Assembly: GCA_030695565.1 (NCBI GenBank) | Contig: JAUYRZ010000049.1 | Span: 1 to 64,000, forward strand | Direction of reading: 5' to 3' | DNA length: 64,000 nucleotides | Source of the DNA: Archangium sp. | GTDB taxonomy: Bacteria > Myxococcota > Myxococcia > Myxococcales > Myxococcaceae | Shown here: positions 37,922-54,212 of the stretch, piece after piece | Position numbering within the stretch: the first letter of the stretch is position 1 | How the letters are laid out: each line of letters opens with the position of its first letter | The notes under the pieces: model-generated | Databases searched by the model: none | Told to the model about the DNA's origin: nothing | The model's input: the letters and a program-made list of their open reading frames with translations, nothing else | Made by a program: the position numbers and the translations under genes

Positions 37922-38245
37922 TCACGACCCGCTGTCAGCGCCTGCTGAGGGGAAAGGGCAGGTGCATTCAACTGTGGTCCCACAAATCTCGCGGCTTTCA
38001 CCGCACTTCCACTTCTTCTTTCCGTAGCCCTCGACGCCGTGGATGTCCAAGTCTCCTCCATCGGCGACGATCCTCGTCCGAGACTCTATTCCGCTTTCCA
38101 CGGTGCACTCGCTTCCGCCTTCGTGGATGCTCCAGAAGCAGTTGCCGCCGGGGATTTCGGGACGTTCGTCAGAGTCTTGCTTGACGGTTCCTTTGCTGGC
38201 GCACGCCACTGCAACAAGTGTAACCAAGAGGAATGCCCGGCTCAC
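37922..38245 (-). CDS. Cys-rich lipoprotein, probable immunity protein of orphan Rhs cassette
   Basis: 107 residues starting at a GTG that overlaps the stop of the orphan toxin module (GTGA). The signal ends A-V-A-C (lipobox). The mature part shares with the lipoprotein at 38818 the segments P-G-G-N-C-F-W-S-I-H-E-G-G, K-K-K-W-K-C-G-E and V-E-C-T-C-P-F-P. The pair are clear paralogues. The position directly after a toxin tip and the envelope location suggest an immunity protein protecting the periplasm. Confidence 0.7.
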   Translation of the reverse strand: MSRAFLLVTLVAVACASKGTVKQDSDERPEIPGGNCFWSIHEGGSECTVESGIESRTRIVADGGDLDIHGVEGYGKKKWKCGESREICGTTVECTCPFPSAGADSGS

Positions 38246-38700
38246 TTGCACACCTCGGAGATGGCTTGAGCTGAGCACTTACTTTGGTCGTCTGGGACGG
38301 CCTTCCCGGTCTGATCGCGGCAGTGGTGGACCGCCTCGTGAAGGATGACTGACGCCAGTTCAGCCTCGGTGGCCGGGGGGGGGGAGCACAGGGCCTGATC
38401 AAACTGAACGCTGTAGTCGTCTTTTTTGTTTCGGTTAGAGCATCCCAATGCATCCTGCTTATTGCATTTCAAGTTCTGCACGATGTACGCGGGTTCAGAG
38501 TTGTCGAGAATCTTGCAGATGTCACAGTTCCCGCTACCGCACTCTTGGAGCTTCTGCGAACACGGGCAGGACTTGTCGGCAGCGCTCGTGCCGCAGCCGG
38601 CGTCTTTCGGCCTCGCGCATAGCCTCATCCCAGTTCGTGCACTTGCCATTGGCAGCGAAGAGTCCGGTTTCGTCCGTGTAGTGCAGAGGATTGTTGAGGC
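38242..38700 (-). pseudogene. Orphan Rhs C-terminal toxin module, frameshifted
   Basis: A displaced copy of the Rhs tip. It begins at the core-boundary sequence N-N-P-L-H-Y-T-D-E-T-G-L-F and keeps the Cys-rich domain (C-D-I-C-K-I-L-D-N) and the H-E-A-V-H metallopeptidase-like motif. Compared with the tip of the main Rhs gene, two bases are missing at about 38601-38608, which shifts the reading frame between E-A-M-R-E-A-E-R-R and A-G-C-G-T-S. There is no Rhs core upstream. It could be restored to function only by recombination into a core gene. Confidence 0.75.
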
Positions 38701-38817
38701 GTAAGCCGGGAGGCTGACAGCGCAAGGTGCCAAGTACGAGCAGAGTCTGCGCCGGGGCGACTTCCAGCCCTCGGCACGGCCTTTGCGGTCCAGACGAAAC
38801 AATGCTTTTGAGCTTGC

Positions 38818-39132
38818 TCAGGACCCGCCATCAGGCATCACTGGAAAGGGGCAGGTGCACTCAACCTCGATGCCACAAACCTGGCGCTTCTCGCCGCACT
38901 TCCACTTCCTCTTGCCGTGGCCTTGCGTCCCTTCAATCACGTCGGTCGTACCAGGACTACGCCTTCTGGTTTCGCCTGCGATCTCCACGACGCAATCAGT
39001 CCCGCCTTCATCAATTGACCAATAGCAGTCGCCCCCTGGTTTCTCGGGGCCTTCTGAATCGCTCGGCCTGATGGTCCTCTTTCCGGAACAGCCGAGACAC
39101 CCCAAGACCAAGGCTAGGATAGTCCATTTCAC
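38818..39132 (-). CDS. Cys-rich lipoprotein, probable immunity protein of the Rhs toxin
   Basis: 104 residues. The signal ends L-G-C (lipobox, about Cys15). Mature conserved blocks are P-G-G-D-C-Y-W-S-I-D-E-G-G, K-R-K-W-K-C-G-E-K-R-Q-V-C-G and V-E-C-T-C-P-F-P, with at least six Cys likely paired as disulfides. Its ATG overlaps the Rhs stop (ATGA). Lipidated, oxidised immunity proteins fit a toxin acting in the periplasm. The paralogue at 37922 is about half identical. Confidence 0.75.
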   Translation of the reverse strand: MKWTILALVLGCLGCSGKRTIRPSDSEGPEKPGGDCYWSIDEGGTDCVVEIAGETRRRSPGTTDVIEGTQGHGKRKWKCGEKRQVCGIEVECTCPFPVMPDGGS

Positions 39133-42100
39133 TGGCAGGCCTCCGCGATATCCGCGGCCCTACACCCAGGATTGCCTTTGGGAGGATCGTGAACAGGCTG
39201 TCTCGTCTGCTCACGGCAAAAGTGAGCAGCCTCGTGCAGAATGACAGTTGCCAACTCTGAGGCAGGCGCAGGTGGGGAACAAAGCGCCTGGTCAAACTCA
39301 ACCTTGAAGAAGTCGTTCGCTTTGCGGTGAGAGCAGCCGGACGCGTCCTTCCCATCACACTTGAGGTTTTTCACGATGTAAGCAGGGTCTGCGTTGTCGA
39401 GGATCTTGCAGATGTCGCAGCCGCTGCTGCCGCACTCTTTGAGCTTCTGTGCGCAGGCGCAGGACTTTTGGTCGTCGCTGCCGCAGCCGGCCCGCTTTTT
39501 GGCCTCTTGCATGGCCTCGTCCCAGTTCGTGCACTTGCCGTTCAGCGCGAACAGGCCGGTCTCGTCCGTGTAGTGCAGCGTATTGTTGAAGGCGTACGAG
39601 TACGCCGGAACGAGCACACCGCCCTTGGCGATGGATACCACATAGCTGAGGTCTTGAAGCATGGGCTCAGGAGAGAGGTATCGGCCCGTTGATGGGTCGT
39701 AGTAACGGTTCCAGTTCTCGTGAAGCTCGGTCTCTGGGTCGAAGTACTGGCCGGGGAAGCGCAGTGGCGTCCACGCCCACCAGACCCAGGCCTGCTTCGC
39801 ACGTACCTCGTATGCCTCCATGTCGAAGCCGTAGTCCGACCCAGACCCTGTCCAGGACAGGGCCCAGCTGTTGGTTGACGAGTACTGCCAGTCACTCCAC
39901 ACATGCGACTTGTTGCCTTGCAACGGTGACTGGACAACGCCCGCCAAGCTCACCGATGAGCTCGTCGAGTAGTTCGACCGTGACATGAGGACGCGCAAGG
40001 GGCCATCGAACCCCGGCGGCATCGTCGGTGTCAACGTTGCCACAGGGGTCGTACCAGCGCTGCCGTGAGGGCTGCCCACGCGGTATTCGCGACGATTCGA
40101 GTAACCAAGCACCTCGTACGTCGACGTCCCCGCCGTTCCACCACGGTCGAAGGAGACGACCGGTTTGCCGAGATAGTCAGTCACAAGCTCGAAGCTCCCG
40201 CACAATCCCACCTCGCCATTGCGCTGACACGTGAGGCTGGGGTCGTCCGCTGCTCGCGCCATGGTGGAAGCAATAAATTTGCTACGGACGATCATCAACG
40301 GGCGCCCGTCTAGCCAAATGTAGTCGTCCTCTGGATACTCCGTGGCGCTCGCGGCGACAGTGTTGGAGCCACGATCGGTGAGCATCTGGTGGCCGAGGTC
40401 ATAAAAAAACTCGTCGGTCGTGTTCCACGGAGTGGTCTTCGCGCGCCGGCGCCCGAATGCATCATAAAAATAGCTGTAGGTGCCGTTCACGTATTGGTTC
40501 GAAAGGTAGTTCCCTCCGCTCACCACAGCCGTTTGGTAGACGCTATCAAGACCGGCACCAAGAGTGCTCTGCGGGAAGCCGGTGGTCACGTGATAGAGGT
40601 TGAATTCATCCCATGTGTCGGTGCGACGCCCGTCGCGATCGTAGTAATAGTTGTAGCTGCCGTTCGATGGCGCGGTGGCGTTACAGGTCGAACCGAAGGC
40701 AGGCCCCCACCGCGTGGAGAACGGCATGTCGACCTGCCAGGCTGCAGTCCAAAATGGAACATTCTGCTGGCAGCTCTGCGGCGCCACCAAAGTGGAGTTA
40801 GTTCGATTGCCTCGCTTGTCAAACACCTGAGAGAGTGAAGTGCCCATATTGACGTCGTTGTGGCTGACCAGTCGCTGGGTCTTGTCGTATCCGAATGTCT
40901 CCTTGACGACCGAACCGGAACTCCGATGACAAGTCTGTTGCACAACCAGTTGGTCCGCATCCCAGGTGTAGACTTGTTTGAAGATATTACCATTCGGTGT
41001 GCCGAGGGTCATTGGGCCGTCGGAAACGAATAACCCGCGCGTCCGCCCCGAGAAATCGTATGAGCCATATGTTGCAGGGAGTGATGAGCAGGACGTAGCG
41101 GTCGATGCGGCTTCCAGGCTGCCTCCGCGGTAGTACTCGACCCAGTGTCCATTGCCCGCAAAGCGGTAGGCCCGAAGTCCGCCATAGGGTTCCCATGCGA
41201 TAGAATCGAACGCGACCGCGCCATCCTTGTTCCAGGATGAGCCATTCCATTTGTGGTAAACGATTGAGCCAGGCCGGTCCATCGAACCCGACGATGGGTA
41301 GACGTAGTTGACCTTCCGACCGTGCGGATACGTGATTCCCTCTAGGTCACCGTTCAGAGTGTATGAATACGAGGTGTGTGGGTTCTTGTCCTCTGTTGCG
41401 GTGCCATTGCCACAACCAGCCACAGACCCTCGGCGGCGCACTTCGCGAGTCACGCGCCCCGCCTCATCGTACAGATACCAAGTCATTCCAAATGAGTCAT
41501 TGCGCGAGACCAGTTTCCCTCCAGAAAACAGTGGGGCAGGGCAGCCACTCTCGGGGACGAAGCTGTCGTAACTCAGCGCGTAGAGGAGAATCGGGGCGCC
41601 ACCGGTTCTCGTTACACTGAGTAAGCGCCCGATTGAGTCATATGCATACTCAAGCATGGTCCCCGCCGCGAACATCTCGGCGCCCTGCTTCTTGATGAGA
41701 TTGCCGAGCGCGTCAAACTCGTACCGTGCGATCTGGCGCGCGTCTTGGCGCACAGTCCAGGGGAAGGTGATTTTAGTCGTGTTGCCAAAGTCATCCACCT
41801 CATAGTCGACGACGCCCGGATTGCAGGGGGCGGTGCCTCCATCGAAATTCACATTGATTGGACACATCGGAGCCGCGACAGAGCCCGAACATCCACTTGT
41901 GACTCGCCGAACATTGCCATTGTCGTCGTACTCCATGCAGGTCCGCTCGCTGTTGCTGTCTTGAACTCCGTTCGGATGTGAGTCAATCTCCGCAAGGCGG
42001 TCAGCGCGGTCATACTTGAGCCAACTACAGGCCGCGGAATTGACCGCGCAAAAGTCAGGCGCGTGCGCAAAGGGCTGACCGATAGAAACCACGTTGCCAT

Positions 42101-43760
42101 TGCCATCGAAGTTTCGCTTGAGTGCGTAGGTCGATGGGCTCCCGATCTGCCCACCGGTCTGCTCGTAGGTGAGTTGGCCGTGCGCATTCCTCGAGTAGAA
42201 CTTTTCGGAACGATTGCCGGAAGGGACACGATGAGTCTCTCGCTTCAATCCGTCGTCCGGCCAATATTGGTAGTCGATACGCTCGGTCCAAGAAAGGGCG
42301 GAATCGGTTTTGGCTTTCCACTGAAGCAGAGGCGTGCTCTCTCCCCCTGTGCACGTGTCCGAGGCGATGCTGCGGTAACAGAATAATTCGTAATTGCCGC
42401 GCGGATACCTGATTTTGGTGAGACGACCAGCCTCGTAACTGAACTCCTTTACTTGGTCACCGCCTGCGACCACCAGGGTCTCCTTCGTAACCCGGTTCAC
42501 AGAGTATTCGAACTTGCGAACTGCGCCGCTCTCGTCAACTACCTGTCCCGGGAGGCCAGTTACTGAATATTGAGAGTACGATGTATTCAGTGCCGTTCCG
42601 CACGTGTTGCCACTATTGGTCGGATAACGCGCAACTTTGGTCAAACGGCCGCCTGACTCATTCTCGAAGTAGAATTCCGTTGTCGGATACGCGCCGGAGC
42701 ACCCAGTCGCGGCCTCACTCGCAACGATACAGGGGCCTTCGACACGAAGCGTTCGGTTCATGGCATCGGAAACGATCCCAAGGTCACATGAGCGTTGCGT
42801 CTTGTAAAAGGTGCCGATCACGCGGGGTAATTCTGTGCCCGCAATGCTGCGCGTCCACCCTGATTCGAAGACGGCATCGAGCCTGTCTCCAGCGTACCTT
42901 TTTGTAGACACGACTTGCCCGCCCGCGTGGATGGTCGAGTTGCGTCTCGAGGTCAGCAGGCGCTGCTGAGCAACGCTGCCGTAACCGTATACGTAAGATG
43001 TTGCTTCCAGCCCGCCCGAGCCCGTTCGGTCAGATGCGCCAATGGTTCGAGAGGTCACCTCGAGAACACTCTGAGGTGGGCCGGCGTCAGCTGTCGCGAG
43101 TCGCTGAGGCGACACTGAGTAGGCGCCGGTCTTGCTCTTGACCGCCCATAGGACGGATGGAGTCGCCGAGTCACACGTAGCGGAAGCACCTGAAGAATTG
43201 AGATAGTGGTACTCGACAGTGCCTGCGACGACCGATGGCGACGTGCCAAAATCCTCACGCTTCGTAAGCGAGACGTCGTGCAACGACATATTGTAGCCCC
43301 CAAGCAGGCTGTACGTGGACCCGCTCGATGCGATTGAGAAGGTACTGTCGCCACTGCTGGTCTCTCTGTTGATCGTCGAGGTTCTCGAGTACGCCTGTGG
43401 CGGGCAACAAGTGTTGGCGATGGGGCAATTGGGGGAGTTTTGCCCGTCTCCGAGAGCAACAGCGGTTCGCGGCGCGCCACCGGCAGTGGAACTCAAGACG
43501 CTCCATTGCGGATTTGGATTGAGGTTCGTCTGCGGGCCGAGAACGTGGCGAATGACTGGTACGGGATCTGCGCTGTCACCGCGAACCACTGTAAATTCGA
43601 GGCCGGCGTCTCCGTAGCGGTAGCGTTCCTTCAACTGCCCCGTCGAAGAATCGGAGGCACTCGCCAACTCTGGGAAGCCGCGAAAGCTGACGTAGTCATA
43701 GTGGGCGTGGGTTCGATTCCTCCATCCGCTTGCTTGCCGACGATTGATTTGAGTACACAT
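39129..43760 (-). CDS. Rhs-repeat protein, core and HExxH metallopeptidase-like toxin tip (frameshifted from N terminus)
   Basis: A 1543-residue frame with many YD repeats (Y-D-x-x-G-R-L/V, G-R-Y-L-S-P-E-P near 1385) forming the Rhs shell. The core ends at Y-T-D-E-T-G-L-F (about 1400). The last about 135 residues are a variable tip: Cys-rich (C-A-C-A-Q-K-L-K-E-C-G, C-D-I-C-K-I-L) with V-I-L-H-E-A-A-H-F-C near 1509, a zinc-metallopeptidase-type HExxH. The first about 20 residues are out of frame with the natural N terminus (see 43631). The region is AT-richer than its neighbours. The immunity gene is coupled downstream. Confidence 0.8.
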   Translation of the reverse strand: MCTQINRRQASGWRNRTHAHYDYVSFRGFPELASASDSSTGQLKERYRYGDAGLEFTVVRGDSADPVPVIRHVLGPQTNLNPNPQWSVLSSTAGGAPRTAVALGDGQNSPNCPIANTCCPPQAYSRTSTINRETSSGDSTFSIASSGSTYSLLGGYNMSLHDVSLTKREDFGTSPSVVAGTVEYHYLNSSGASATCDSATPSVLWAVKSKTGAYSVSPQRLATADAGPPQSVLEVTSRTIGASDRTGSGGLEATSYVYGYGSVAQQRLLTSRRNSTIHAGGQVVSTKRYAGDRLDAVFESGWTRSIAGTELPRVIGTFYKTQRSCDLGIVSDAMNRTLRVEGPCIVASEAATGCSGAYPTTEFYFENESGGRLTKVARYPTNSGNTCGTALNTSYSQYSVTGLPGQVVDESGAVRKFEYSVNRVTKETLVVAGGDQVKEFSYEAGRLTKIRYPRGNYELFCYRSIASDTCTGGESTPLLQWKAKTDSALSWTERIDYQYWPDDGLKRETHRVPSGNRSEKFYSRNAHGQLTYEQTGGQIGSPSTYALKRNFDGNGNVVSIGQPFAHAPDFCAVNSAACSWLKYDRADRLAEIDSHPNGVQDSNSERTCMEYDDNGNVRRVTSGCSGSVAAPMCPINVNFDGGTAPCNPGVVDYEVDDFGNTTKITFPWTVRQDARQIARYEFDALGNLIKKQGAEMFAAGTMLEYAYDSIGRLLSVTRTGGAPILLYALSYDSFVPESGCPAPLFSGGKLVSRNDSFGMTWYLYDEAGRVTREVRRRGSVAGCGNGTATEDKNPHTSYSYTLNGDLEGITYPHGRKVNYVYPSSGSMDRPGSIVYHKWNGSSWNKDGAVAFDSIAWEPYGGLRAYRFAGNGHWVEYYRGGSLEAASTATSCSSLPATYGSYDFSGRTRGLFVSDGPMTLGTPNGNIFKQVYTWDADQLVVQQTCHRSSGSVVKETFGYDKTQRLVSHNDVNMGTSLSQVFDKRGNRTNSTLVAPQSCQQNVPFWTAAWQVDMPFSTRWGPAFGSTCNATAPSNGSYNYYYDRDGRRTDTWDEFNLYHVTTGFPQSTLGAGLDSVYQTAVVSGGNYLSNQYVNGTYSYFYDAFGRRRAKTTPWNTTDEFFYDLGHQMLTDRGSNTVAASATEYPEDDYIWLDGRPLMIVRSKFIASTMARAADDPSLTCQRNGEVGLCGSFELVTDYLGKPVVSFDRGGTAGTSTYEVLGYSNRREYRVGSPHGSAGTTPVATLTPTMPPGFDGPLRVLMSRSNYSTSSSVSLAGVVQSPLQGNKSHVWSDWQYSSTNSWALSWTGSGSDYGFDMEAYEVRAKQAWVWWAWTPLRFPGQYFDPETELHENWNRYYDPSTGRYLSPEPMLQDLSYVVSIAKGGVLVPAYSYAFNNTLHYTDETGLFALNGKCTNWDEAMQEAKKRAGCGSDDQKSCACAQKLKECGSSGCDICKILDNADPAYIVKNLKCDGKDASGCSHRKANDFFKVEFDQALCSPPAPASELATVILHEAAHFCREQTRQPVHDPPKGNPGCRAADIAEACQ

Positions 43761-44587
43761 CCTCTTGGCAGTCCGGCTCCTGCGTCGAAAACTGCGTAAG
43801 CAAACTCGAGTTTGTCAGTCAGGCCTGGGAAGGTAACCTGCTTGATTGCGCCTGGCTGGACATAGTCAGCTGGGTTCGCGTTCGTGACCGTCGTCAACCC
43901 AGCGTCTGGACATGCTTCTTGTGCTGTCCGATACTCAACGTCAAGGAGGCGGTTGCCTGGTGATGAATCAATCGACGTTAAAAACCAAACCTCATTCGAA
44001 ACGTTATATGTATAGTGAAGTATCTGGCCATTGACGTGAGTGAGGTGATAGCCGTTGACGCCAGCGTCAGAACCAGTGCCTACAGAGTAGAGCCTCGACT
44101 TGAGGGCTGGAGAGTACGAGTGAGGGCTGAGCCATTCAGAGACCGTGGTAGAGGTAGGATTTCGGAACTCCTGTTGATAGCCCGACAGGTCGCGAACGGC
44201 GACGGTTCCTCCACCGAAGGCGGCGGTTCCGGCATACGTAATCGCAAAAAGGCTGTGCCACCAACGAGTGCCGCTGGGGTCGATTCCACTCCTGCCAAAG
44301 GGCGCTAGTTGCTCTCGAAGGACAGTGACGCCGACCGCCCCGCCCCAGTTCGCCCACGATGCGGGGTTGGATACAAAATATCGTTTGAAGTCGAAGCGTC
44401 CGGTTGCAGTCGAAACCGAAAAGTCTGTGGTTGCGTAGTAGGAGTCGTTGGATGCGGTATCAATGGGATCCTGATCCAGTCGAGGATCGCAGATGTCCGG
44501 TGCGATCGGGCTCATCTTGCACCATTGGCCATACGCCAATGCGGATACCGTGAGGCAAGCTGTAAAAGCGATGCGCGTTGTTCTCAT
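43631..44587 (-). pseudogene. Rhs protein N-terminal fragment (separated by frameshift)
   Basis: Encodes a signal peptide (M-R-T-T-R-I-A-F-T-A-C-L-T-V-S-A-L-A-Y-G) and the N-terminal Rhs part (T-A-T-G-R-F-D-F-K-R-Y). It continues to I-V-G-K-Q-A-D-G-G-I-E-P-T-P-T and runs out of frame. The sequence Y-D-Y-V-S-F-R-G-F-P-E-L-A-S, which should follow, is in the frame of the 39129-43760 fragment, near 43700. One indel, real or from sequencing, splits one gene in two. The ATG overlaps the upstream stop (ATGA), so the gene is in an operon. Confidence 0.75.
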
Positions 44588-45405
44588 TTGGACAAGTCCC
44601 TGATGATCTTGGTGTTGCCGTCGGCATCGACTGAGAGGATTTGATGGCCCAATCGAAGATAGATTGTGTCCCCTGCCTGAGCCCACTGTGGCCTTTCAAC
44701 AGGCAGATCGGATCGAAACAAGGCCCATGTCTTCCCGACCCTTGTTTTGATGTTCAAAATTCGTAGTTCAACGCCTTGATTCGTCGGGATCGAGTAGGCG
44801 ATGCGTCCGGATGGATGCCAACTCAACTCGCCGACCTGGTGCTCGAAGGAGACTAAATCTTGCTCCCGCCCAGTTGTAGTGTCGAGCAGCGCGAGACTTC
44901 GCCCGCTCGTTCCGCAGTTGGCATGAGCGAAGAACACATTCCGCCGGCCGGCGCTACGCGGCCATAGGTGACAGCCACGCGAGTTTGAAAGTCTTTGAAG
45001 TTCTGACCCGCGACTGAATTGTGTTCGGTAGACTTGTGCGTACTGCATCGACTGCCCATCAATAGGCGGCGCCTTCGAGTCGTTTGCCGAGAAGTAGACC
45101 CATTCGCCGTCTTGAGAGAAAGCCAGATGGTCTAGAACAGAACCTACCCCTTCGATGATACGCGGCGCTCCGTCAAAGTCTTCGAGGAGAGCCAATGCCC
45201 GTCTGCCGTTCGGCAGCATGGTGGCGATTGCCCATCGACGGCCATCTGGCGATATGGCGGCATCCAGGACGGCAATATTGCCAATTCGGTCGAAGCGCCG
45301 AATGACTGATCCTTGTTCATCGAGTTGTACCCAGTCCCCTGCGCCGGTTGCGAAGAGAAGGTGTGGGGCCGAAGCGATGAGGCAACGCAGGACAATTGCG
45401 ATCAA
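44584..45405 (-). CDS. TolB-like beta-propeller protein of the Rhs operon
   Basis: About 273 residues with PD40/WD-type repeats (A-I-S-P-D-G-R-R-W-A-I, A-F-S-Q-D-G-E-W-V-Y-F-S-A-N-D, S-W-H-P-S-G-R-I-A-Y). I choose the TTG at 45405 because it overlaps the upstream stop (TTGA) and gives a signal peptide. The ATG at 45489 would overlap the upstream gene by 88 bases. It probably acts outside the cytoplasm; its role beside an Rhs gene is unknown. It is AT-richer than the flanks. Confidence 0.65.
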   Translation of the reverse strand: MIAIVLRCLIASAPHLLFATGAGDWVQLDEQGSVIRRFDRIGNIAVLDAAISPDGRRWAIATMLPNGRRALALLEDFDGAPRIIEGVGSVLDHLAFSQDGEWVYFSANDSKAPPIDGQSMQYAQVYRTQFSRGSELQRLSNSRGCHLWPRSAGRRNVFFAHANCGTSGRSLALLDTTTGREQDLVSFEHQVGELSWHPSGRIAYSIPTNQGVELRILNIKTRVGKTWALFRSDLPVERPQWAQAGDTIYLRLGHQILSVDADGNTKIIRDLSK

Positions 45406-45809
45406 GGCACAGAACCGTCGAGCGCCATCGTTGCTGCTTGGTTCACGCCGAAGGCGCTCAATTCTGGCTTCGAGAATGAGGGCGCGCATACCCATCCATC
45501 TCTGCTTGGCCAAATCTGATTGCATTCGAAATGGCGGCCTGCCACCGACGGACAAGCATCGCCCGGAGTGCAGCGCTGGGAGCAGATCCCTTTCGGCGGA
45601 AGGCCCGGGAGCACCCTCAAGCACAGCCCAGAAGCGCAACCGGAGTTGCCTTCATACTGCGTGCAATCAGCAGCGAATCCGAGTCGCTGAATAGGGGCGG
45701 CAAGACCCTTCGTCTGCTCAGTGATGGGACTGAGCCATTGTGGCTGTTGCTCTGCGTTCTGAATGCAGCCAAGGGAAGCCACGACGAGGCTCATGATCAG
45801 TCGGTTCAT
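45402..45809 (-). CDS. Cys-rich hypothetical lipoprotein, first gene of Rhs operon
   Basis: 135 residues with a lipobox (V-A-S-L-G-C, about Cys14). Seven or more further Cys follow in a pattern like small disulfide-rich domains (C-A-S-G-L-C-L, G-I-C-S-Q-R-C-T-P-G-D-A-C). Function unknown. It heads the chain of overlapping genes leading into Rhs and the immunity lipoprotein. Confidence 0.65.
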   Translation of the reverse strand: MNRLIMSLVVASLGCIQNAEQQPQWLSPITEQTKGLAAPIQRLGFAADCTQYEGNSGCASGLCLRVLPGLPPKGICSQRCTPGDACPSVAGRHFECNQIWPSRDGWVCAPSFSKPELSAFGVNQAATMALDGSVP

Positions 45810-45978: not shown

Positions 45979-48366
45979 TCAGTCATCGACGACGACGGTT
46001 ACGGCTGCGGTCGTTTCACCAGATTGAGCGATGCGGGCGCGGATCACGTGTGTGCCGGGTGAGAGGTGCCAGCGCAGTTCGTGGGGGTAGCCCACCTTGC
46101 CGACCGGGGCTCCGTCGACCAGCCAGACGATCTCTTCATTGGCGGGAGTAACGGCTGCGGCGAAACGCACTGTCGAGAGCTCGCGCGGGGTGTCGGGATC
46201 GAAGAGGTAGCGGCTCTTCGCTCTCGGCTGGCGGATGGCGATCTTCGGCGTGACCGCTTCTCCTACCGGGCACAGCGGGGAGAACGCAGCGGGGGCGATG
46301 GCGAGGCGTTGTTTGCGCGCCCAGGGCTCGTAGGTCTCGGGCAGATCGAGCAACTGCTGCTTGATGACGAACTGCGCCGGGCACGACGGGCCCGCACGGA
46401 GGTGGTTGCGAATGTCCAACGCCACCTCGACGTGAAAGGGACACGCCTCGTGCGGTTCGGTGCCGGCGATGAACCACTCGGAGCGCGTGTTGGTGCAGCT
46501 CGGCCCCGGCATGTGTCCCGAGATGGCGCAGACCTCGCGTTGCAGCAGCGAGTCGGGGAGCGGGCGATCCATCATCGGCGCGATGTGCGGTGAGCGGGTG
46601 GGGGAGACCTCGTCGAGAATGCGATGAGCGGCGGGTGCTGCTGCGGTGGCGCCTGAGGCCAGATTCATGCGGCGCCAGTCGTGATTGCCGATCCACGTGA
46701 GCACCAGCACTCGATCGTCGAACGCCACGGCCCACGCATCACGGTAGCCTTGGCTCGTGCCCGTCTTCACCGACACCGCGTGATCGAAGTCGAGCGGACC
46801 ACCGACGGGGAATCCGGGCCGGCGTGCACCCGGGTCCGCGAGGATGTGCGCGGTCAGCATCGCGGCGTCGACTGAGAGAATGCGGGCACCTTCGGTTCGA
46901 GGGCCGTCGATGAATCGCCTCAGCGGGATCGTCTGACCGCGGTTCGCGAGGCCTGTGTACAGCGTGGCCAGTTCGTTCGGCGTCACCGGCAGCGCGCCGA
47001 TCGCCAGGCCCAGTCCGTAGGCCTCAGGTGCGAAGCGCACGCCTTTCACTCCGCCTCGCTCGAAGCGGCCGAGGGCTTCGTCGACTCCGACCTGCGCCAG
47101 CACTCGCAGCGCGGGGATGTTGCGCGAGTTGCCCAGTGCTTCACGCAGCAGCATGGGCCCCAGGAATGTGTGCGTGATGTTCTCGGGCGCGTAGAGACCG
47201 CCGCCGGGTACTTCGAACTCGACCGGGGTATCGGCGATGGAGGTCGCTGCCGTGTGCGTGCCCTTCTCGATTGCCAGTCCGTAGATGAATGGCTTGAGCG
47301 CCGAGCCGGGTGAACGACGCGTTTCGAGGAAGTCGATCGCTCCGCGCGCGTCTTTGTCGAAGTAGTTCGCGCTGCCGACTGACGCGAGCACGTCGCCGGT
47401 GGCCAGGTCGACCACCATGCCGGCGGTGTTCGTCGCCCCGAGCCCACGAATGCGCGAGAGGTTCTCGTTGAGCGCTTTGAACGCCGTGTCCTGTACGTCG
47501 AGGTCGAGCGTGGTGTGGTGCACCACTTCGGCGCTGCCTCTCACCTCACGCGCGGCCGCGAGCAGGAAGTGCATCGCTTCGATGTGACGCTTCGGGCGGG
47601 GAACGACTTGCAGATCCGAGTTCAGCGCGATGCGGAGATCTTCGTCGTTGATCACGCCTCGCGTGTGGAGTTGCCCGAGGATTCGCCGCGCACGGTTGAG
47701 CGCGAGGCGGTGGCCGTCGGTGGTCCACGGCGACATGCGGCCGGGTTGTTGTGGGAGCGCCGCGAGGTAGGCCGCCTGCAGCCAGGAGAGATCTTCGATT
47801 GGCTTTTCGAAGTAGAGGCGCGAGGCGCGCACGACTCCGTGGCAGCGGTTTCCGTAGGGCGCGATCGTGAGGTAGTGCCGGAGTACGTCGTCGTGGCCGA
47901 AGCGGTGGATCAGCAGGATTGCTTCCGCGGCTTCCTGCGCCTTTGCGAAGAGCGTGCGGGACTTGGGGTGTTGAAGTCGCGCGAGCTGCATCGGGATCGT
48001 TGATGCGCCTGAGATGACTCGGCGGTTGCGGAGGTTCTGCCAGGCCGCTCTCGCGATGGAGGGGAAATGGACTCCGGCGTGCTCGTTGAAGTTTCGGTCT
48101 TCGGTTTCCAGCGTCGTGATGACGACTTTGTTCGGGAGGTCTTCGGGCACCGGCCAGAAGCCCCAGGCTTCGTGGCTGCCGGGGACTTCGCCCAGGAACT
48201 TGCCCGTGCGATCGAGGAGCAGGTGCGAGGGTTGACGGTGTTGAAGCGTGGGGTTCAGGGTGCTCGCGAACCAGCTCGTCAGGGCGAGGAGGATGACGAG
48301 GGTCAGGAGGCTTCGGCGGCCCCTCACCCCGACCCTCTCCCCGCTTTGCAGGGAGAGGGAGCTCAT
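45979..48366 (-). CDS. pbpC: Penicillin-binding protein 1C
   Basis: 795 residues, a bifunctional class A peptidoglycan synthase. After one membrane segment comes the glycosyltransferase domain (T-L-E-T-E-D-R-N-F-N-E-H-A-G-V near 105). The transpeptidase domain has the serine in S-P-G-S-A-L-K-P-F (about 354) and K-T-G-T-S (about 532). A C-terminal BiPBP_C domain is specific to PBP1C. The ATG overlaps the alpha-2-macroglobulin stop (ATGA), which supports this start although the first about 20 residues are encoded by a REP-like element. Confidence 0.92.
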   Translation of the reverse strand: MSSLSLQSGERVGVRGRRSLLTLVILLALTSWFASTLNPTLQHRQPSHLLLDRTGKFLGEVPGSHEAWGFWPVPEDLPNKVVITTLETEDRNFNEHAGVHFPSIARAAWQNLRNRRVISGASTIPMQLARLQHPKSRTLFAKAQEAAEAILLIHRFGHDDVLRHYLTIAPYGNRCHGVVRASRLYFEKPIEDLSWLQAAYLAALPQQPGRMSPWTTDGHRLALNRARRILGQLHTRGVINDEDLRIALNSDLQVVPRPKRHIEAMHFLLAAAREVRGSAEVVHHTTLDLDVQDTAFKALNENLSRIRGLGATNTAGMVVDLATGDVLASVGSANYFDKDARGAIDFLETRRSPGSALKPFIYGLAIEKGTHTAATSIADTPVEFEVPGGGLYAPENITHTFLGPMLLREALGNSRNIPALRVLAQVGVDEALGRFERGGVKGVRFAPEAYGLGLAIGALPVTPNELATLYTGLANRGQTIPLRRFIDGPRTEGARILSVDAAMLTAHILADPGARRPGFPVGGPLDFDHAVSVKTGTSQGYRDAWAVAFDDRVLVLTWIGNHDWRRMNLASGATAAAPAAHRILDEVSPTRSPHIAPMMDRPLPDSLLQREVCAISGHMPGPSCTNTRSEWFIAGTEPHEACPFHVEVALDIRNHLRAGPSCPAQFVIKQQLLDLPETYEPWARKQRLAIAPAAFSPLCPVGEAVTPKIAIRQPRAKSRYLFDPDTPRELSTVRFAAAVTPANEEIVWLVDGAPVGKVGYPHELRWHLSPGTHVIRARIAQSGETTAAVTVVVDD
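48320..48364. repeat. REP-like element overlapping pbpC start
   Basis: CCCCTCACCCCGACCCTC and GCAGGGAGAGGGAG arms form an imperfect palindrome. The element encodes most of residues 2-16 of the PBP1C frame in antisense. It is one of several near-identical dispersed copies. Confidence 0.6.
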
Positions 48367-51300
48367 TTTTCGTGCGCGCCCGTCACCACGATCTTCATAC
48401 CTGCTCCACGACCCCGCACTTCTTCGCGGTACATCAGCTCGGCGTACGGCGGCGGGTGCACGAACTTGCCTTCGCTGCTCGCTCGCACCCGGAAGTGGAA
48501 CGTGTACGTGCCTCGCGGCAACTCGGTGAAGTAGTAGCGGACCTCCGAGTCCATTCGCTGCACGTAGGTCGGGTTGATCGAGTCCGCCTGAGACGGCTTC
48601 GCGTCACTGCCCGACGTCTCCAGGTTCGGATTGAGCGGCTCGAGCCCCGCCGCGATCGGAATGACCAATGCCACGTGGTGACGCACTTCATCGGTCACCA
48701 GCTGCGCGTGGATTTCGAGGATCTCTCCGAGCGGGATCGCGAGTGACGAGCCCGTCTTGTCATCGTGGTGCGTGATCGCCGAACCATCCGAGTGCAGCCA
48801 CGACAGGCTGCGCGACACGATGAAGCCATCCTTCTTCGGCTCCACCAACTGGCCCGCACCGCCCGGCAGGTAGCGCTGCTGCAGCCGCGCGCTCAGCTTG
48901 CCGCCCGTGACCGTGAAACCCATCGCTGCGTCACTTTCCAGAGTGCGGCGGCCTGCGCGTTTCGTCTCGTCGAGCACTGCATCCGCCACGCCTGCGATCG
49001 CCACCGTCGTCTTCGGCTGCGGCGTGGTGTTCTTCTCGAGGTACGTGCCCAACGCTGCCAGCGCGCGGCGATTGGCGTGCGTGCTGCCGAAGCCGTACTG
49101 CGCGTTGGCGCGAGAGAGAAGGGCGTCACGAATCATCGTGTGCTTCGCGTTCGACGGGTCGACCCGCAGCAACGCTTCCCACACCGCGCCCGTCGTGGCC
49201 GCCGAAGAGCCCAGGTACAGGCCGTTCCAGCTCCCGCGATCACCACGAATGCCGTCGAACTGCTGCTGACCCTTCACCAGCTTGAACACCACGCTGTCCC
49301 ACAGCTCACCCTTGAGCGCGGTGAGGTTGGTCTGGAAGGTGTTGGGCCGCTCCGACATCGCCCAGGTGAGATCAGCGAGCGAGACCGCGTCCATCGACTT
49401 GCGCTTGGCGAAGAGCTCCACCAGGTAGTTCTCGTCGAGCTCTCCCGTGCGGCCGAGCGCACGCAGCGCGGAGGTCTGCTGGTTGTACCGGTACTCGCTC
49501 CACAGCCCATTGAAGTCGGTGCGGAGCACGCGCTTGAGCGCATCCGTCGCACGCCGCAGCACCGTGTCGTCGAGCGTGATGCCGGCCTTGCGCGCCGCCA
49601 CCATGAACTCCACGCCTTGCGCGGTCAGCGCCACATCGCCACGCCCACCCGGCCAGTAGCTGAAGAAGCCCTGCTCATCCTGGTGCTGCTTGAGCTCGTC
49701 GAGGATGCGCTTGCTCGAGGCCTGCACCTGCGGCGTGAAGCGCGTGTCGAGCTCGAGCTTCTTGAGGAAACCACCCAGCGCGAGATCCGGAGACACCTGG
49801 CTCATGCGCTGCTCGAGGCAGCCGTGCGGATACGCCGAGAGGTATTCCAGACCGCTGGCCAACTCGAGCAGACCAATCTGGTTGGTGAACACCACCGTCT
49901 GACTGCCCGTGCCGGGACGCGGCTTCTCGGGGAAGTCGGGGCCCGAGCTCTTGCCTGCCTCGAGCGTGGTGAAGAGCGCACGCTTCTCGATCGCGCGATC
50001 CGGCAGCAGCGGCAGCTTTACTTCAAACGCATCGCCCGCCTTGTCGGACAATCGAGTCACGTCGACTCGTACCGTGAGCGCCGTGTCCTTTGCCGTGGTG
50101 ACGCTCTTCACGGTCGCAGGCGTGAGCACGGACAGCGCCTTGTTCGCCTTGAGCTCGACCTTCGACTGGCTCACGGCCTTGCCTTCGATCGCGCCGGTGA
50201 TCTTGATGTCCACCACGCCCGGGCCTTCAGCGCCTTCCACCAGACGCGCGACCGCGCCCGGCCAGAACGAGTCACCCATGCGCACGAAGCGCGGGAGCTG
50301 CGGCTGCACCAACACCGGCAGCCGTACCTTCAACGAGGACTGCTTGAGCCCGAAGCGCATGCCGCCTGACACCGCGACCGCACGCACACGGAAGGTGGTG
50401 AGGTCGTCCGACAACGTCACCGGAACCACCAGCTTGCCGCTCGGAGGAACCGTCAACGTCGCCGCGTAATAGGGCACGGTCTTGAAGTCCTTGCGCACCA
50501 TGCGCTTGCTGCCGTTGGTCTCGTCATCGCCACCGTCACCACCGGGCTCCTCTTCGAGCTCGGAGACGCGGCCGACCACCAGGTTGCGCGAGTCGCGAAT
50601 GCTCACCGCGCGCTGATTGCGGCGGATGAGCTCACTGAGCGGGTCGAGTGGGCCTTCTTTCGCCAGCGAGAGCACCGCTTCATCGACCAGCCAGAGCGTC
50701 ACCTCGCCGCCGACGGGCTTCTTCTGATCGTCGGTCAGCGTCACCACGAAGTCGTGCTTCGTGCCGGGACGCGCCATCTCGGGGTGCTGCACGTTGACGA
50801 TCACCAGGTTCTTCGTCGGCTCGACCTGCAGATCGAGCGACGACGCGACGGTGGCCGGCTTGTAACGCGCGTCGTCCGTCTTCCCTTCACCGAGCCGGCC
50901 ACGCATCAACACCACGTGCATCGGCAGGTTGGGCACGAACCGATCCGTCACGGGCACGTCGATGACCGCTTTGCTTCCGCCGATGTCCTTCCAGAGGTAG
51001 CGGTTGCCGCCCGGCTCTTCGATCACCACCAGCGCGCGCGCCGTGGCGAACGGGCTCTGCACCAACACGTGCGCGACGTCGCCGGGCACGTAGCTCTTCT
51101 TGTCAGGCTTGAGCTCGAACACCCCATCGCGCGACTTCTGCCAGGACTGCGGCGTGGAGCCTCCGATGTAGAGGTCAGCCGAGAGCGTCTGCACCCGCCC
51201 CAGCTTGTCGCGCGCGAACAGCTCGACCACGTACACGCCGGAATCGGTGATCGCGAACGAATGAGAAGCCGCTTCGGCGGCGCTGGTGAGGATCTTCTCG

Positions 51301-54212
51301 GAGACCTGCACGTCTTCCTGCTCCGTCTGGTACTTCGCTGCGCCCGTCGCGAAGCTCGTCTCGCGCAAGGTGGAGTGCCACACCCGGCGGAAGAGCCGAA
51401 CGCGGATCTCCTGGCCCTTGATGGGCTTGTCGTCGACTCCGACCGCGAGCACCTCGGGCTTCAGCTCGGTCGCCTTCTCGAGGTAGCGGGGAATCTTGAG
51501 GCCCAGCACGAACGAAGGCAGCGCCTTCACTTCGGTCGCGGTGGTCACCGGCTGCTCATCCGGCCCGGTCACGGTCGCCTCGAAGCGGTACACGCGCGGG
51601 CTGCCGTCGAGATCGAGCTGGGGGTTCATGGTGATTTCGGCCGCTCCGTTGTCGTCGAGCTCACCTTGTTGTGACGTGACACCGGGCGCCTGCTGCGATG
51701 CCGGCCGCGCGAACTGCGTGGAGTTGGCGAAGAGAAAGCCAGGCAGCCCTTTGGGAACCCAGTCGTACGCACGCTGCGTGACCGTCCACGCGATGGGCTG
51801 GTTCGCCACGTTGCCGCCTGCGTAGTAGCGGGCCAGCGCCTTCACCTTGAACGACTGATCGTTGCGCACGCGCAGCGCTCCGGTGAGCTGCACCTCGAAG
51901 GTGGGCACACGGTACGCCTCGATCTTGAAGCTGCGGCGCGCGAGGAACGACTCGGGGTTCTTGTCGAAGAGCGAGAGCGTGTAGTCGCCCGTCGGCACGT
52001 CGGCTTCCTTGAAGGTCGCTTCCAGACCACCGAGTGGAGAGGTCTTGGTCGTCACCGGATACGCGGTGCCGTCGGGGCCGATCACCTGAATGCCGAAACG
52101 TTTCAGATCGGCCGGCACGCGCAGCTCGCCGCTCACCTTGGTGCGCACGAAGGCCTTGATGAACACGGGCTCCGCGGGGCGGTAGATGCCGCGCTCGGGG
52201 AAGATGAAGCCCAGCGTGGTGTCGTTGACCGGCGAAGGAATCGACTTCGCCAGCAGCCACGACAACCACGAGTCGGAGCTCGACCAGTGGTTGTTCGCGA
52301 ACACCGGCAGGCGCTCACGCGGGTCGAGCACCAGCACGTCGTCACCTGAAGTCACCGAGACGCGGCTGATGGAATCCCAGCCGACCGGGGCGATCGAGAC
52401 GCGGCCGTCTCCATCGGTGGTCTGGGTCAGCTCCACCGGGCGCTGAGGCACGCCCGCGCGACCTTCCATCTTCACCGTCGCGCCCCGCACCGATTCGCCT
52501 GAGTCGAGCGAGCGCACGTAGATGACCGCGCGGCCGGTCTCTTCGACCGAGGTGACCGAGAGGTTGGTGATCTGCACGCGCATGTACGTGCGCTGCGCCG
52601 CTCCGGTGAGACGGCGCAGGCCGACCAGGTACGTGCCGGGGCGGTTGGCGCCCACCACGTCATCGAGCAGCGGCTTCAAGTCGAGGCCGAAGGTGGTGGC
52701 GCCCGATTTGTCGGCGAGCGGGAGATCGACCAGCCGTGAGATGAGCGGGCTGCCGAGCAGTCGGATGTGCCGGTTGAGCGTGGTCGAGTCGATGTAGCCG
52801 GGCGCTTCGGGCACCACGGGCTCCTCACCGGGGAAGGGCGGATCGCTCTGTTCGTCGATCACCACCGGCGAGGCAGGGAAGGGCCAGAGGCCCGGGTGCA
52901 TCGGATCGACGCGGTACACGCGCACGTCGGCGCGCGCTTCTCCGTAGCCACGCAGCGCGAGGGTGCGCGGGCCTTTCGCCTCGAGCATCGCGGTGCCCTG
53001 CTGCCAGGCGAGGAACGGCGTCTTCCATCCAAGGTGGAAGTAGACGTCGGCCGCCTTCACGTCGCGCAGCGGGCGCTGGGCGTCATCCCGAATCGGCGCG
53101 CTGGCGAGGCTCAGTTTGTAGAGCGTGTCGGGCACGAACTTGCCGACCAGCTGCACGCGCGAGCCGTACGACTGAAAGCGCAAGTCAGGCACGGAAGGCT
53201 CGAGGCGCACCAGCTTCCGCAGCGCGGTGAGCGTCAGGTCTTGCACCGACGCAGAGAAGACGAGCTGCGGTTGATCGCCGCGATTGCCACAGGCCAGCGC
53301 GAGATCCTTCGGCGTCGATGCGCCGCCGACCAGCGGGAACACCGCGTTGCCGCAACGCACTTCCGTCAACGTGAAGGGCGTCCGCGTCGACGCGCGGCCC
53401 TGCCAGAGCGTGGTGCCTTCGTTGCCCAGCGCGAGGCTGATGCCGACGACGAGCTGGCGGCCTTCGGGCACGTCTTCGTCGAGCGTGACGGTCCACGTGG
53501 AGGGATCGCGGTGTGACGCGCGGGGGAGCGGGGCGAGCGCGTAGCTGTTCACCTTGCGCGAAGGCGAGTCTCCCAGGCCGGGCAGATCTCGGATCTCCAG
53601 GGTGAGCATTTTTTTCAACGATGCCACCGGGTACGCCTGAGGGAAGGTCAGGGTGAGCACGCGGAAGGGCCGCAGACCTTCGCTGCCCGGTGAAGGCGAC
53701 ATCGCGGAAGGCGCCGACATCATGGTGGTCAGCACCTTGCGGGCGCCGCCGGCCTCTACGGAGAAGCGCGCGAGTGCGGGCCACGGTTCTGCCGGTCGGA
53801 ACTGCAGGGTTCGTTTGTCGACCCAGACGTAGGCACCGGGCCAGTCGGGGGAGAGCTTGAGCCGCTTGGCTCCGTCATCGGCGTTCGCTTTGTCGCCGAC
53901 TTGATCGGACGAGAAGTAGACGGAGATGGGATCGAAGCCGCGGAGAAATTGTTCCGGCAGCAGCGAGGTGCCGCCAGCAGCGGGGCGTTGGCCTTGATCG
54001 GCCGGGCGGTACTGCGCGTGAGCCGCAAAGCCAAGCAACGCCATCGCGACCGTGAGTCCCCTCGCCCTGCGAAGCGGGGAGAGGGTCAGGGTGAGGGGGC
54101 TGCTCGTAAAAGAGCCCCTCACCCGGCCTGCGGCCGACCTCTCCCCGCGGGCGCAGGGAGAGGTAACTGCGACTTCACTCGACATGACTTCACTCCGATT
54201 GATGGCGTTCAT
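48363..54212 (-). CDS. Bacterial alpha-2-macroglobulin (YfhM-like)
   Basis: 1949 residues. Periplasmic macroglobulin that traps proteases through a thioester. The reactive motif G-C-L-E-Q is present near residue 1463. Multiple MG domains precede it. These genes are usually coupled to pbpC, as here (ATGA overlaps on both sides). The signal core (L-T-V-A-M-A-L-L-G-F-A-A-H-A) is preceded by about 55 residues encoded by a REP-like double element that supplies the basic n-region (R-R-A-R-G). A GTG inside the REP could be the true start. Confidence 0.9.
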   Translation of the reverse strand: MNAINRSEVMSSEVAVTSPCARGERSAAGRVRGSFTSSPLTLTLSPLRRARGLTVAMALLGFAAHAQYRPADQGQRPAAGGTSLLPEQFLRGFDPISVYFSSDQVGDKANADDGAKRLKLSPDWPGAYVWVDKRTLQFRPAEPWPALARFSVEAGGARKVLTTMMSAPSAMSPSPGSEGLRPFRVLTLTFPQAYPVASLKKMLTLEIRDLPGLGDSPSRKVNSYALAPLPRASHRDPSTWTVTLDEDVPEGRQLVVGISLALGNEGTTLWQGRASTRTPFTLTEVRCGNAVFPLVGGASTPKDLALACGNRGDQPQLVFSASVQDLTLTALRKLVRLEPSVPDLRFQSYGSRVQLVGKFVPDTLYKLSLASAPIRDDAQRPLRDVKAADVYFHLGWKTPFLAWQQGTAMLEAKGPRTLALRGYGEARADVRVYRVDPMHPGLWPFPASPVVIDEQSDPPFPGEEPVVPEAPGYIDSTTLNRHIRLLGSPLISRLVDLPLADKSGATTFGLDLKPLLDDVVGANRPGTYLVGLRRLTGAAQRTYMRVQITNLSVTSVEETGRAVIYVRSLDSGESVRGATVKMEGRAGVPQRPVELTQTTDGDGRVSIAPVGWDSISRVSVTSGDDVLVLDPRERLPVFANNHWSSSDSWLSWLLAKSIPSPVNDTTLGFIFPERGIYRPAEPVFIKAFVRTKVSGELRVPADLKRFGIQVIGPDGTAYPVTTKTSPLGGLEATFKEADVPTGDYTLSLFDKNPESFLARRSFKIEAYRVPTFEVQLTGALRVRNDQSFKVKALARYYAGGNVANQPIAWTVTQRAYDWVPKGLPGFLFANSTQFARPASQQAPGVTSQQGELDDNGAAEITMNPQLDLDGSPRVYRFEATVTGPDEQPVTTATEVKALPSFVLGLKIPRYLEKATELKPEVLAVGVDDKPIKGQEIRVRLFRRVWHSTLRETSFATGAAKYQTEQEDVQVSEKILTSAAEAASHSFAITDSGVYVVELFARDKLGRVQTLSADLYIGGSTPQSWQKSRDGVFELKPDKKSYVPGDVAHVLVQSPFATARALVVIEEPGGNRYLWKDIGGSKAVIDVPVTDRFVPNLPMHVVLMRGRLGEGKTDDARYKPATVASSLDLQVEPTKNLVIVNVQHPEMARPGTKHDFVVTLTDDQKKPVGGEVTLWLVDEAVLSLAKEGPLDPLSELIRRNQRAVSIRDSRNLVVGRVSELEEEPGGDGGDDETNGSKRMVRKDFKTVPYYAATLTVPPSGKLVVPVTLSDDLTTFRVRAVAVSGGMRFGLKQSSLKVRLPVLVQPQLPRFVRMGDSFWPGAVARLVEGAEGPGVVDIKITGAIEGKAVSQSKVELKANKALSVLTPATVKSVTTAKDTALTVRVDVTRLSDKAGDAFEVKLPLLPDRAIEKRALFTTLEAGKSSGPDFPEKPRPGTGSQTVVFTNQIGLLELASGLEYLSAYPHGCLEQRMSQVSPDLALGGFLKKLELDTRFTPQVQASSKRILDELKQHQDEQGFFSYWPGGRGDVALTAQGVEFMVAARKAGITLDDTVLRRATDALKRVLRTDFNGLWSEYRYNQQTSALRALGRTGELDENYLVELFAKRKSMDAVSLADLTWAMSERPNTFQTNLTALKGELWDSVVFKLVKGQQQFDGIRGDRGSWNGLYLGSSAATTGAVWEALLRVDPSNAKHTMIRDALLSRANAQYGFGSTHANRRALAALGTYLEKNTTPQPKTTVAIAGVADAVLDETKRAGRRTLESDAAMGFTVTGGKLSARLQQRYLPGGAGQLVEPKKDGFIVSRSLSWLHSDGSAITHHDDKTGSSLAIPLGEILEIHAQLVTDEVRHHVALVIPIAAGLEPLNPNLETSGSDAKPSQADSINPTYVQRMDSEVRYYFTELPRGTYTFHFRVRASSEGKFVHPPPYAELMYREEVRGRGAGMKIVVTGAHEK
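54057..54163. repeat. REP-like double palindromic element in alpha-2-macroglobulin N terminus
   Basis: Two inverted copies (one reading CCCTGCGAAGCGGGGAGAGG, the other CCTCTCC-rich, joined around TGCTCGTAAAAGAGC) lie inside the coding frame just before the signal-peptide core. This is the clearest BIME-like arrangement in the window. Confidence 0.65.

Follow-up and report, generated by a model that had tools for sequence, protein, structure and literature searches.

What does a myxobacterial Rhs protein deliver when its C-terminus is a Cys-rich domain with an HExxH motif, and what is the role of the small lipoprotein encoded directly behind it? This question is raised by a locus in a 64,000-nucleotide stretch of an Archangium sp. 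genome (contig JAUYRZ010000049.1), hereafter the window, in which an initial annotation had proposed a toxin acting by periplasmic proteolysis and a lipid-anchored immunity protein. We consider it fairly probable that the locus encodes a Sec-exported Rhs protein with an envelope-acting metallopeptidase toxin, together with a periplasm-facing immunity protein, and that a second module beside it is displaced and older. The features concerned are the following.

45402 to 45809, minus strand: Cys-rich lipoprotein gene 5' of the Rhs gene (MNRLIMSLVVASLGC...), with homologues at other Sec-type Rhs genes
44584 to 45639, minus strand: beta-propeller-like gene (weak DPPIV_N/PD40 matches) with an uncertain start codon, whose stop codon overlaps the Rhs start (ATGA)
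43631 to 44587, minus strand: N-terminal part of the Rhs protein, an open reading frame with homology to relatives and a Sec-type signal peptide, MRTTRIAFTACLTVSALAYG
43700 to 43740, minus strand: frame-change zone of the Rhs gene, where homology exits the first open reading frame and enters the second
39129 to 43760, minus strand: Rhs repeat and core part plus tip 1, an open reading frame of 1543 residues (PF05593, TIGR03696)
39132 to 39533, minus strand: tip 1, the candidate toxin, a 134-residue Cys-rich HExxH domain directly after the Rhs core
39222 to 39236, minus strand: HEAAH of tip 1, the HExxH motif
39186 to 39188, minus strand: Asp116 of tip 1, a conserved Asp after the HExxH motif and candidate third ligand
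38818 to 39132, minus strand: lipoprotein 1, the candidate immunity gene, a 104-residue open reading frame with a GTG start and six Cys after the anchor
38614 to 38703, minus strand: remnant of an Rhs core junction, HYTDETGLFAANGKCTNWDEAM, before tip 2 and in a different frame
38245 to 38607, minus strand: tip 2, which repeats the HExxH domain (as HEAVHHC), is out of frame with its junction remnant, and lacks an evident start codon
37922 to 38245, minus strand: lipoprotein 2, an intact second immunity candidate, with a GTGA overlap

The Rhs gene starts at the ATG at 44587 on the minus strand, and its frame is open as far as 43631. The signal sequence is of the Sec type and has no lipobox. The second open reading frame contains RHS repeats (PF05593, E = 1.4e-13 in a profile search) and the Rhs core domain (TIGR03696, E = 1.8e-14), which ends in ...NNTLHYTDETGLF, compared with NNPLxxTDPTGLF in relatives. 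As the initial annotation had described, the core ends at this standard boundary and a Cys-rich tip with VILHEAAH follows. The same annotation treated the gene as continuous from 44587, and this point has to be corrected: homology to myxobacterial Rhs proteins extends in the first open reading frame up to about residue 282 and resumes in the second from about residue 21. Since these two open reading frames (43631–44587 and 39129–43760) lie in different frames, the Rhs gene as assembled cannot yield one protein. Related Rhs genes, where long enough to see, mostly have unbroken frames of 1,800–2,200 residues. The break near 43,700 may be a real mutation or an assembly error, the assembly being a draft of 134 contigs in which a single frame break may be erroneous. 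With regard to a programmed frameshift, no slippery heptamer was recognized by eye at 43.7 kb.

Directly downstream of lipoprotein 1 lies the second module (37922–38703), which had been missed in the initial annotation, as had the frame breaks in both toxin genes. The DNA similarity of the modules begins at the core junction (38703) and amounts to 74% over 398 bases. Tip 2, which is probably silent, is about 60% identical to tip 1, and lipoprotein 2 is 48% identical to lipoprotein 1. The dN/dS values between the copies (0.26/2.0 for the tip and 0.44/2.6 for the lipoprotein) are low, but dS is saturated. In genome G060, the tandem plan is the same, i.e., a full Rhs gene followed by a fragment, a tip, and an anchored protein. 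A tip remnant (LHEVAHHCRNQT) is located beside the lipoprotein in G087, while in G074 an orthologue of the lipoprotein occurs with no tip detected. Window copy 2, G060, G087, and G074 present the usual pattern of displaced toxin–immunity cassettes that keep their putative immunity gene. The second pair of the window would be an older, displaced module, with its toxin broken and its immunity gene intact. As the active copy is itself frame-broken in the assembly, the strain may now be merely immune, unless the break is an assembly error.

These features bear on the most probable of the alternatives, in which the whole locus would be what is left of a pseudogene in decay and would no longer have a function. 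We regard it as somewhat unlikely: the frame breaks in the Rhs core and in tip 2, together with the missing start of tip 2, speak for decay, but the reading frames of tip 1 and of the two lipoproteins are unbroken, the dN/dS values are low within the limit set by saturation, the break in the Rhs gene may come from the draft assembly, and the family is intact elsewhere. As a separate observation, the orphan homologue of the window lipoprotein in G074 (locus L060, G074:C3:6000-20000) is accompanied by two paralogous small lipoproteins (MKFIIPLILVLTGCAHKS... and MKKTIFPILALLGGCSHSS...), and this cluster is apparently an immunity-gene array.

Tip 1 comprises 134 residues, including 13 Cys, and contains VILHEAAHFC. 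Among 195 genomes of the phylum, tip homologues were found in eight other genomes with a single sequence and in 13 other genomes with a profile (E values down to 1e-46), compared with 35 other genomes for homologues of the Rhs N-terminal part. The domain after the core junction is indeed exchangeable, and the other Rhs proteins of this genome bear other tips. All but one of 15 homologous tips belong to Myxococcaceae; the exception, a weak one, comes from a different family within the class. Most of them are located directly behind an Rhs core, and Myxococcus qinghaiensis is among the genomes with a tip. A scan of 85k species representatives returned one locus, that of M. qinghaiensis; its two degenerate patterns miss divergent members, and the phylogenetic range is therefore a lower bound. 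No tip homologue was present in the plasmids, phages, and viral contigs searched.

Sixteen tips were scored, i.e., the 15 in alignment A4, which includes the window, and the interrupted one of G099. Of these, 14 have a complete HExxH and two a broken one (DEATH in G069 and HEFTR in G163). A chance occurrence of the motif was ruled out by this conservation, and the metallopeptidase-type signature reported in the initial annotation is thereby upheld. Alignment A4 has five invariant columns, namely C27, C85, A95, E101, and C133. In 15 of the 16 tips, an Asp is found 12–16 residues past the second His, a spacing measured along the chain. With a per-tip chance of 0.29, the binomial probability is about 1e-7, a value to be read in light of the post hoc choice of this range and the phylogenetic relatedness of the tips. 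No residue type other than Asp is as frequent there, except Cys just after the motif, and the only tip in which the Asp is missing also belongs to the pair with an incomplete HExxH. At the level of sequence, a role of this Asp as a downstream metal ligand is suggestive only.

The tip matches no Pfam, NCBIfam, or PADLOC profile of known toxin, peptidase, or defense families, and the earlier statement that it lies outside the named toxin families holds against these collections. The 15 members likewise gave no toxin-peptidase match in Pfam or NCBIfam, in which some published Tox-MPTase families may lack models. When tip profiles A1 and A4 were compared with all PDB chains, no match to VgrG2bC-ter was obtained; only a weak match to BepA (E = 1.2) and one unrelated match appeared. 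The best weak profile matches of the tips are zinc peptidases (SprT-like, E = 0.08, and the same BepA match), and one member weakly matches an aKG-HExxH hydroxylase model (E = 0.03). An AlphaFold model of the tip, computed from three sequences (window and M. qinghaiensis), is mostly helical, with a pLDDT of 68 and a pTM of 0.68. A structure check had been suggested in the initial annotation. In this model, HExxH is placed on a helix (residues 91–109), but at this pLDDT no fold match to zincins was found (best Foldseek E = 1.5; none at Z of 2 or more with VIA-align), and the candidate Asp adjoins a stretch modeled under pLDDT 50. Because the tip model has no fold match and that of lipoprotein 1 (all-beta, pLDDT 46) is unusable, the putative metal site is derived from conservation only.

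HExxH is found also in non-proteolytic enzymes. Accordingly, the tip could be an envelope toxin of another kind, whose HExxH metal site hydrolyzes a peptide or amide bond of peptidoglycan or a lipid, or merely has a folding role. We consider this unlikely. The missing peptidase-family and zincin-fold matches, the two members without a motif His, and the hydroxylase match of one member would be compatible with it, whereas the location of HExxH in the model helix, the invariant Glu, the near-invariant His, and the zinc peptidases among the best weak matches argue against it. In the metallopeptidase reading, the tip would be a disulfide-rich, zinc-metallopeptidase-like domain with HExxH and a likely downstream Asp ligand, acting in the cell envelope of the target and most probably cutting an envelope protein there.

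The start of lipoprotein 1 overlaps the stop of tip 1 by four bases (GTGA), and its product has a hydrophobic N-terminus with a lipobox-like VLGC/CLGC, in agreement with the earlier description of an overlapping gene for a Cys-rich predicted lipoprotein. As a rule, the gene behind a homologous tip begins between −4 and +4 relative to the toxin stop or overlaps this stop. All 12 partners scored have a predicted N-terminal anchor, either a lipobox or one transmembrane (TM) segment, and 11 of the 12 have 4, 6, or 8 Cys past residue 25. One lipoprotein family is common to the window, G074, and G087. The partners in G079, G092, G074, G060b, and G123 (81–118 residues) have one N-terminal TM segment, and those in the first four of these carry a C-terminal C-x-C, like VECTCPFP of the window. 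The window lipoprotein shares 14–24% identity with the TM-anchored partners, which is too low to prove homology. The partners span several sequence families, and anchoring is kept though the sequences differ. Those in G060a, G060c, and G099 have another Cys pattern and weakly resemble the lipoprotein upstream of Rhs (E = 0.001–0.007), so that their immunity role is less certain.

The initial annotation held that its proposal would be refuted by tip homologues in many proteins lacking the lipoprotein. This objection applies in part: every partner scored is anchored, but the partners are not of one family, and behind the tips of G108, G105, G163, G090, and G093 a polytopic protein is encoded in place of a small anchored one. 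The proposed periplasmic site of action is consistent with the envelope-anchored Cys-rich partner that is linked in nearly all tip loci. An internal control is provided by two further Rhs genes of this genome, whose tips are HNH-like (C61) and GIY-YIG-like (C56): the proteins encoded behind them are soluble and lack a signal. The anchored partner of the tip presumably acts as an immunity protein; from synteny and localization, it would bind the tip on the periplasmic side and thereby protect the producer. The polytopic proteins behind the tips of G090 (L037) and G093 (L039) are large and O-antigen-ligase-like.

In another reading, which is improbable, the tip would have a structural or self-processing role in the Rhs protein, as a release peptidase, and the downstream lipoprotein would be a surface anchor or assembly partner in place of an immunity protein. 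In its favor, PVC-type metallopeptidases serve as releasing peptidases within polymorphic toxins (PMC3482391), and a different Cys-rich lipoprotein, weakly similar to the G060a, G060c, and G099 partners, is conserved upstream of Rhs. Against it, the tip occupies the exchangeable position at the very end of the protein and is missing from most Rhs proteins of the family, whereas the upstream lipoprotein accompanies Rhs with other tips. Moreover, the modules in which tip and partner are displaced (window copy 2, G060c, and the G087 remnant) behave as toxin–immunity cassettes.

For the pair of putative toxin and candidate immunity protein, the delivery route was considered in the context of the genome, where the locus is part of a larger block.

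22469 to 45978, unstranded: 23.5-kb block with the Rhs locus and a nos gene cluster, absent at the same site in four congeners

In G067, G068, G069, and G070, the two sequences that flank the block adjoin each other (in G067 to within about 25 bases), and its absence from these four congeners makes it accessory DNA in the genus. No convincing direct repeats were found at the block ends. The block also holds NosZ-like, NosD, and ABC transporter genes, a sigma-54 activator, and dCMP deaminase/UDG-like genes. No T6SS VipB/TssC (PF05943) was detected in the genome, which is reported as 100% complete, and the E. coli control was positive; delivery of the window Rhs by a T6SS was therefore rejected. 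Given the signal peptide, the missing T6SS, and the precedent of Rhs4/5 in Myxococcus, the Rhs protein would use Sec for export and be presented on the cell surface independently of a T6SS, and its tip would be handed to a neighbor on contact. Toxicity, metal binding, proteolysis, an envelope target, and immunity are what we infer for the tip and its partner, and the locus would be a polymorphic toxin unit that a member of the Myxococcaceae directs at kin or competitors.

To date, several comparable systems have been described. In the Tpe-Tpi pairs (VgrG2bC-ter/PA0261; Tpe1/Tpi1), a periplasmic HExxH toxin is matched by an immunity protein that is periplasmic, a lipoprotein, or TM-anchored, depending on the species (PMC6899460). 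Likewise, the HExxH domain of the window is carried C-terminally by a predicted delivery protein, and an immunity protein with varying anchors is predicted. However, the window tip is strongly Cys-rich with a possible Asp third ligand, and its carrier is a Sec-exported Rhs, not a VgrG, in a genome without VipB. Because there is no detectable sequence relation and the carrier is different, the window pair would work like Tpe-Tpi and is not a member. The nearest toxin class to the window tip is Tox-MPTase1-5, which, together with HopH1-like domains, is described among polymorphic-toxin domains (Zhang et al. 2012, PMC3482391). Both comprise zincin-type HExxH tips behind Rhs repeats, but no immunity partner is listed for them, whereas the window tip is Cys-rich, matches no profile, and has an anchored partner.

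Rhs4 and Rhs5 of M. xanthus have signal sequences and mediate T6SS-independent kin discrimination (reviewed in PMC10433427). They resemble the window protein as very large Myxococcaceae Rhs proteins with a Sec signal, encoded on accessory DNA, with a C-terminal toxin and linked immunity, which in the window are predicted. Yet, the window protein would have about 1,850 residues, compared with about 4,000, and its accessory block is not recognizably Mx-alpha. SitA toxins, which use outer membrane exchange, are also myxobacterial polymorphic toxins with cognate immunity. Their plan is approached by the tip of G099 (L036, G099:C149:75324-75719), which is located behind a lipoprotein-type leader (MKTGWIISSLILLNCS) and not an Rhs; only this tip has a lipobox leader, and a TAG stop codon interrupts the gene. 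The window tip differs in being on an Rhs without a lipobox.

If the metallopeptidase reading is true, the periplasmic-metallopeptidase logic, hitherto described for T6SS Tpe-Tpi pairs, would have a further, independent example in this locus. It bears on how Sec-exported, T6SS-independent myxobacterial Rhs proteins kill, and the envelope-anchored immunity suggests that some of them need reach just the periplasm of the target. More tentatively, and with less than even confidence, we propose a previously undescribed group of disulfide-rich HExxH + Asp envelope metalloprotease toxins, whose tip and anchored-immunity cassettes would be exchanged among Sec-type Rhs carriers, and occasionally lipoprotein carriers, of Myxococcaceae, in a three-gene unit where the upstream Cys-rich lipoprotein aids Rhs display or delivery.

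The upstream lipoprotein shows the pattern LSEHR...GxDC...CxSGLC...GYVCSxxC...CPxxW.C...LCVPP and, in many Myxococcaceae, is encoded directly 5' of Rhs genes of the Sec type whose tips differ (window 45402–45809 and loci L027, L029, L030, L034, L035, L038, L049–L051, and L053–L055). It may be a conserved partner in Rhs display or delivery. On the other side of the block boundary, genes for PBP1C (pbpC) and a bacterial alpha-2-macroglobulin (45979–54212, minus strand) adjoin the block with its putative protease toxin. Bacterial alpha-2-macroglobulin is a proposed periplasmic protease trap. This adjacency is probably a coincidence, since pbpC is also found at this site in the congeners, where the Rhs gene is missing.
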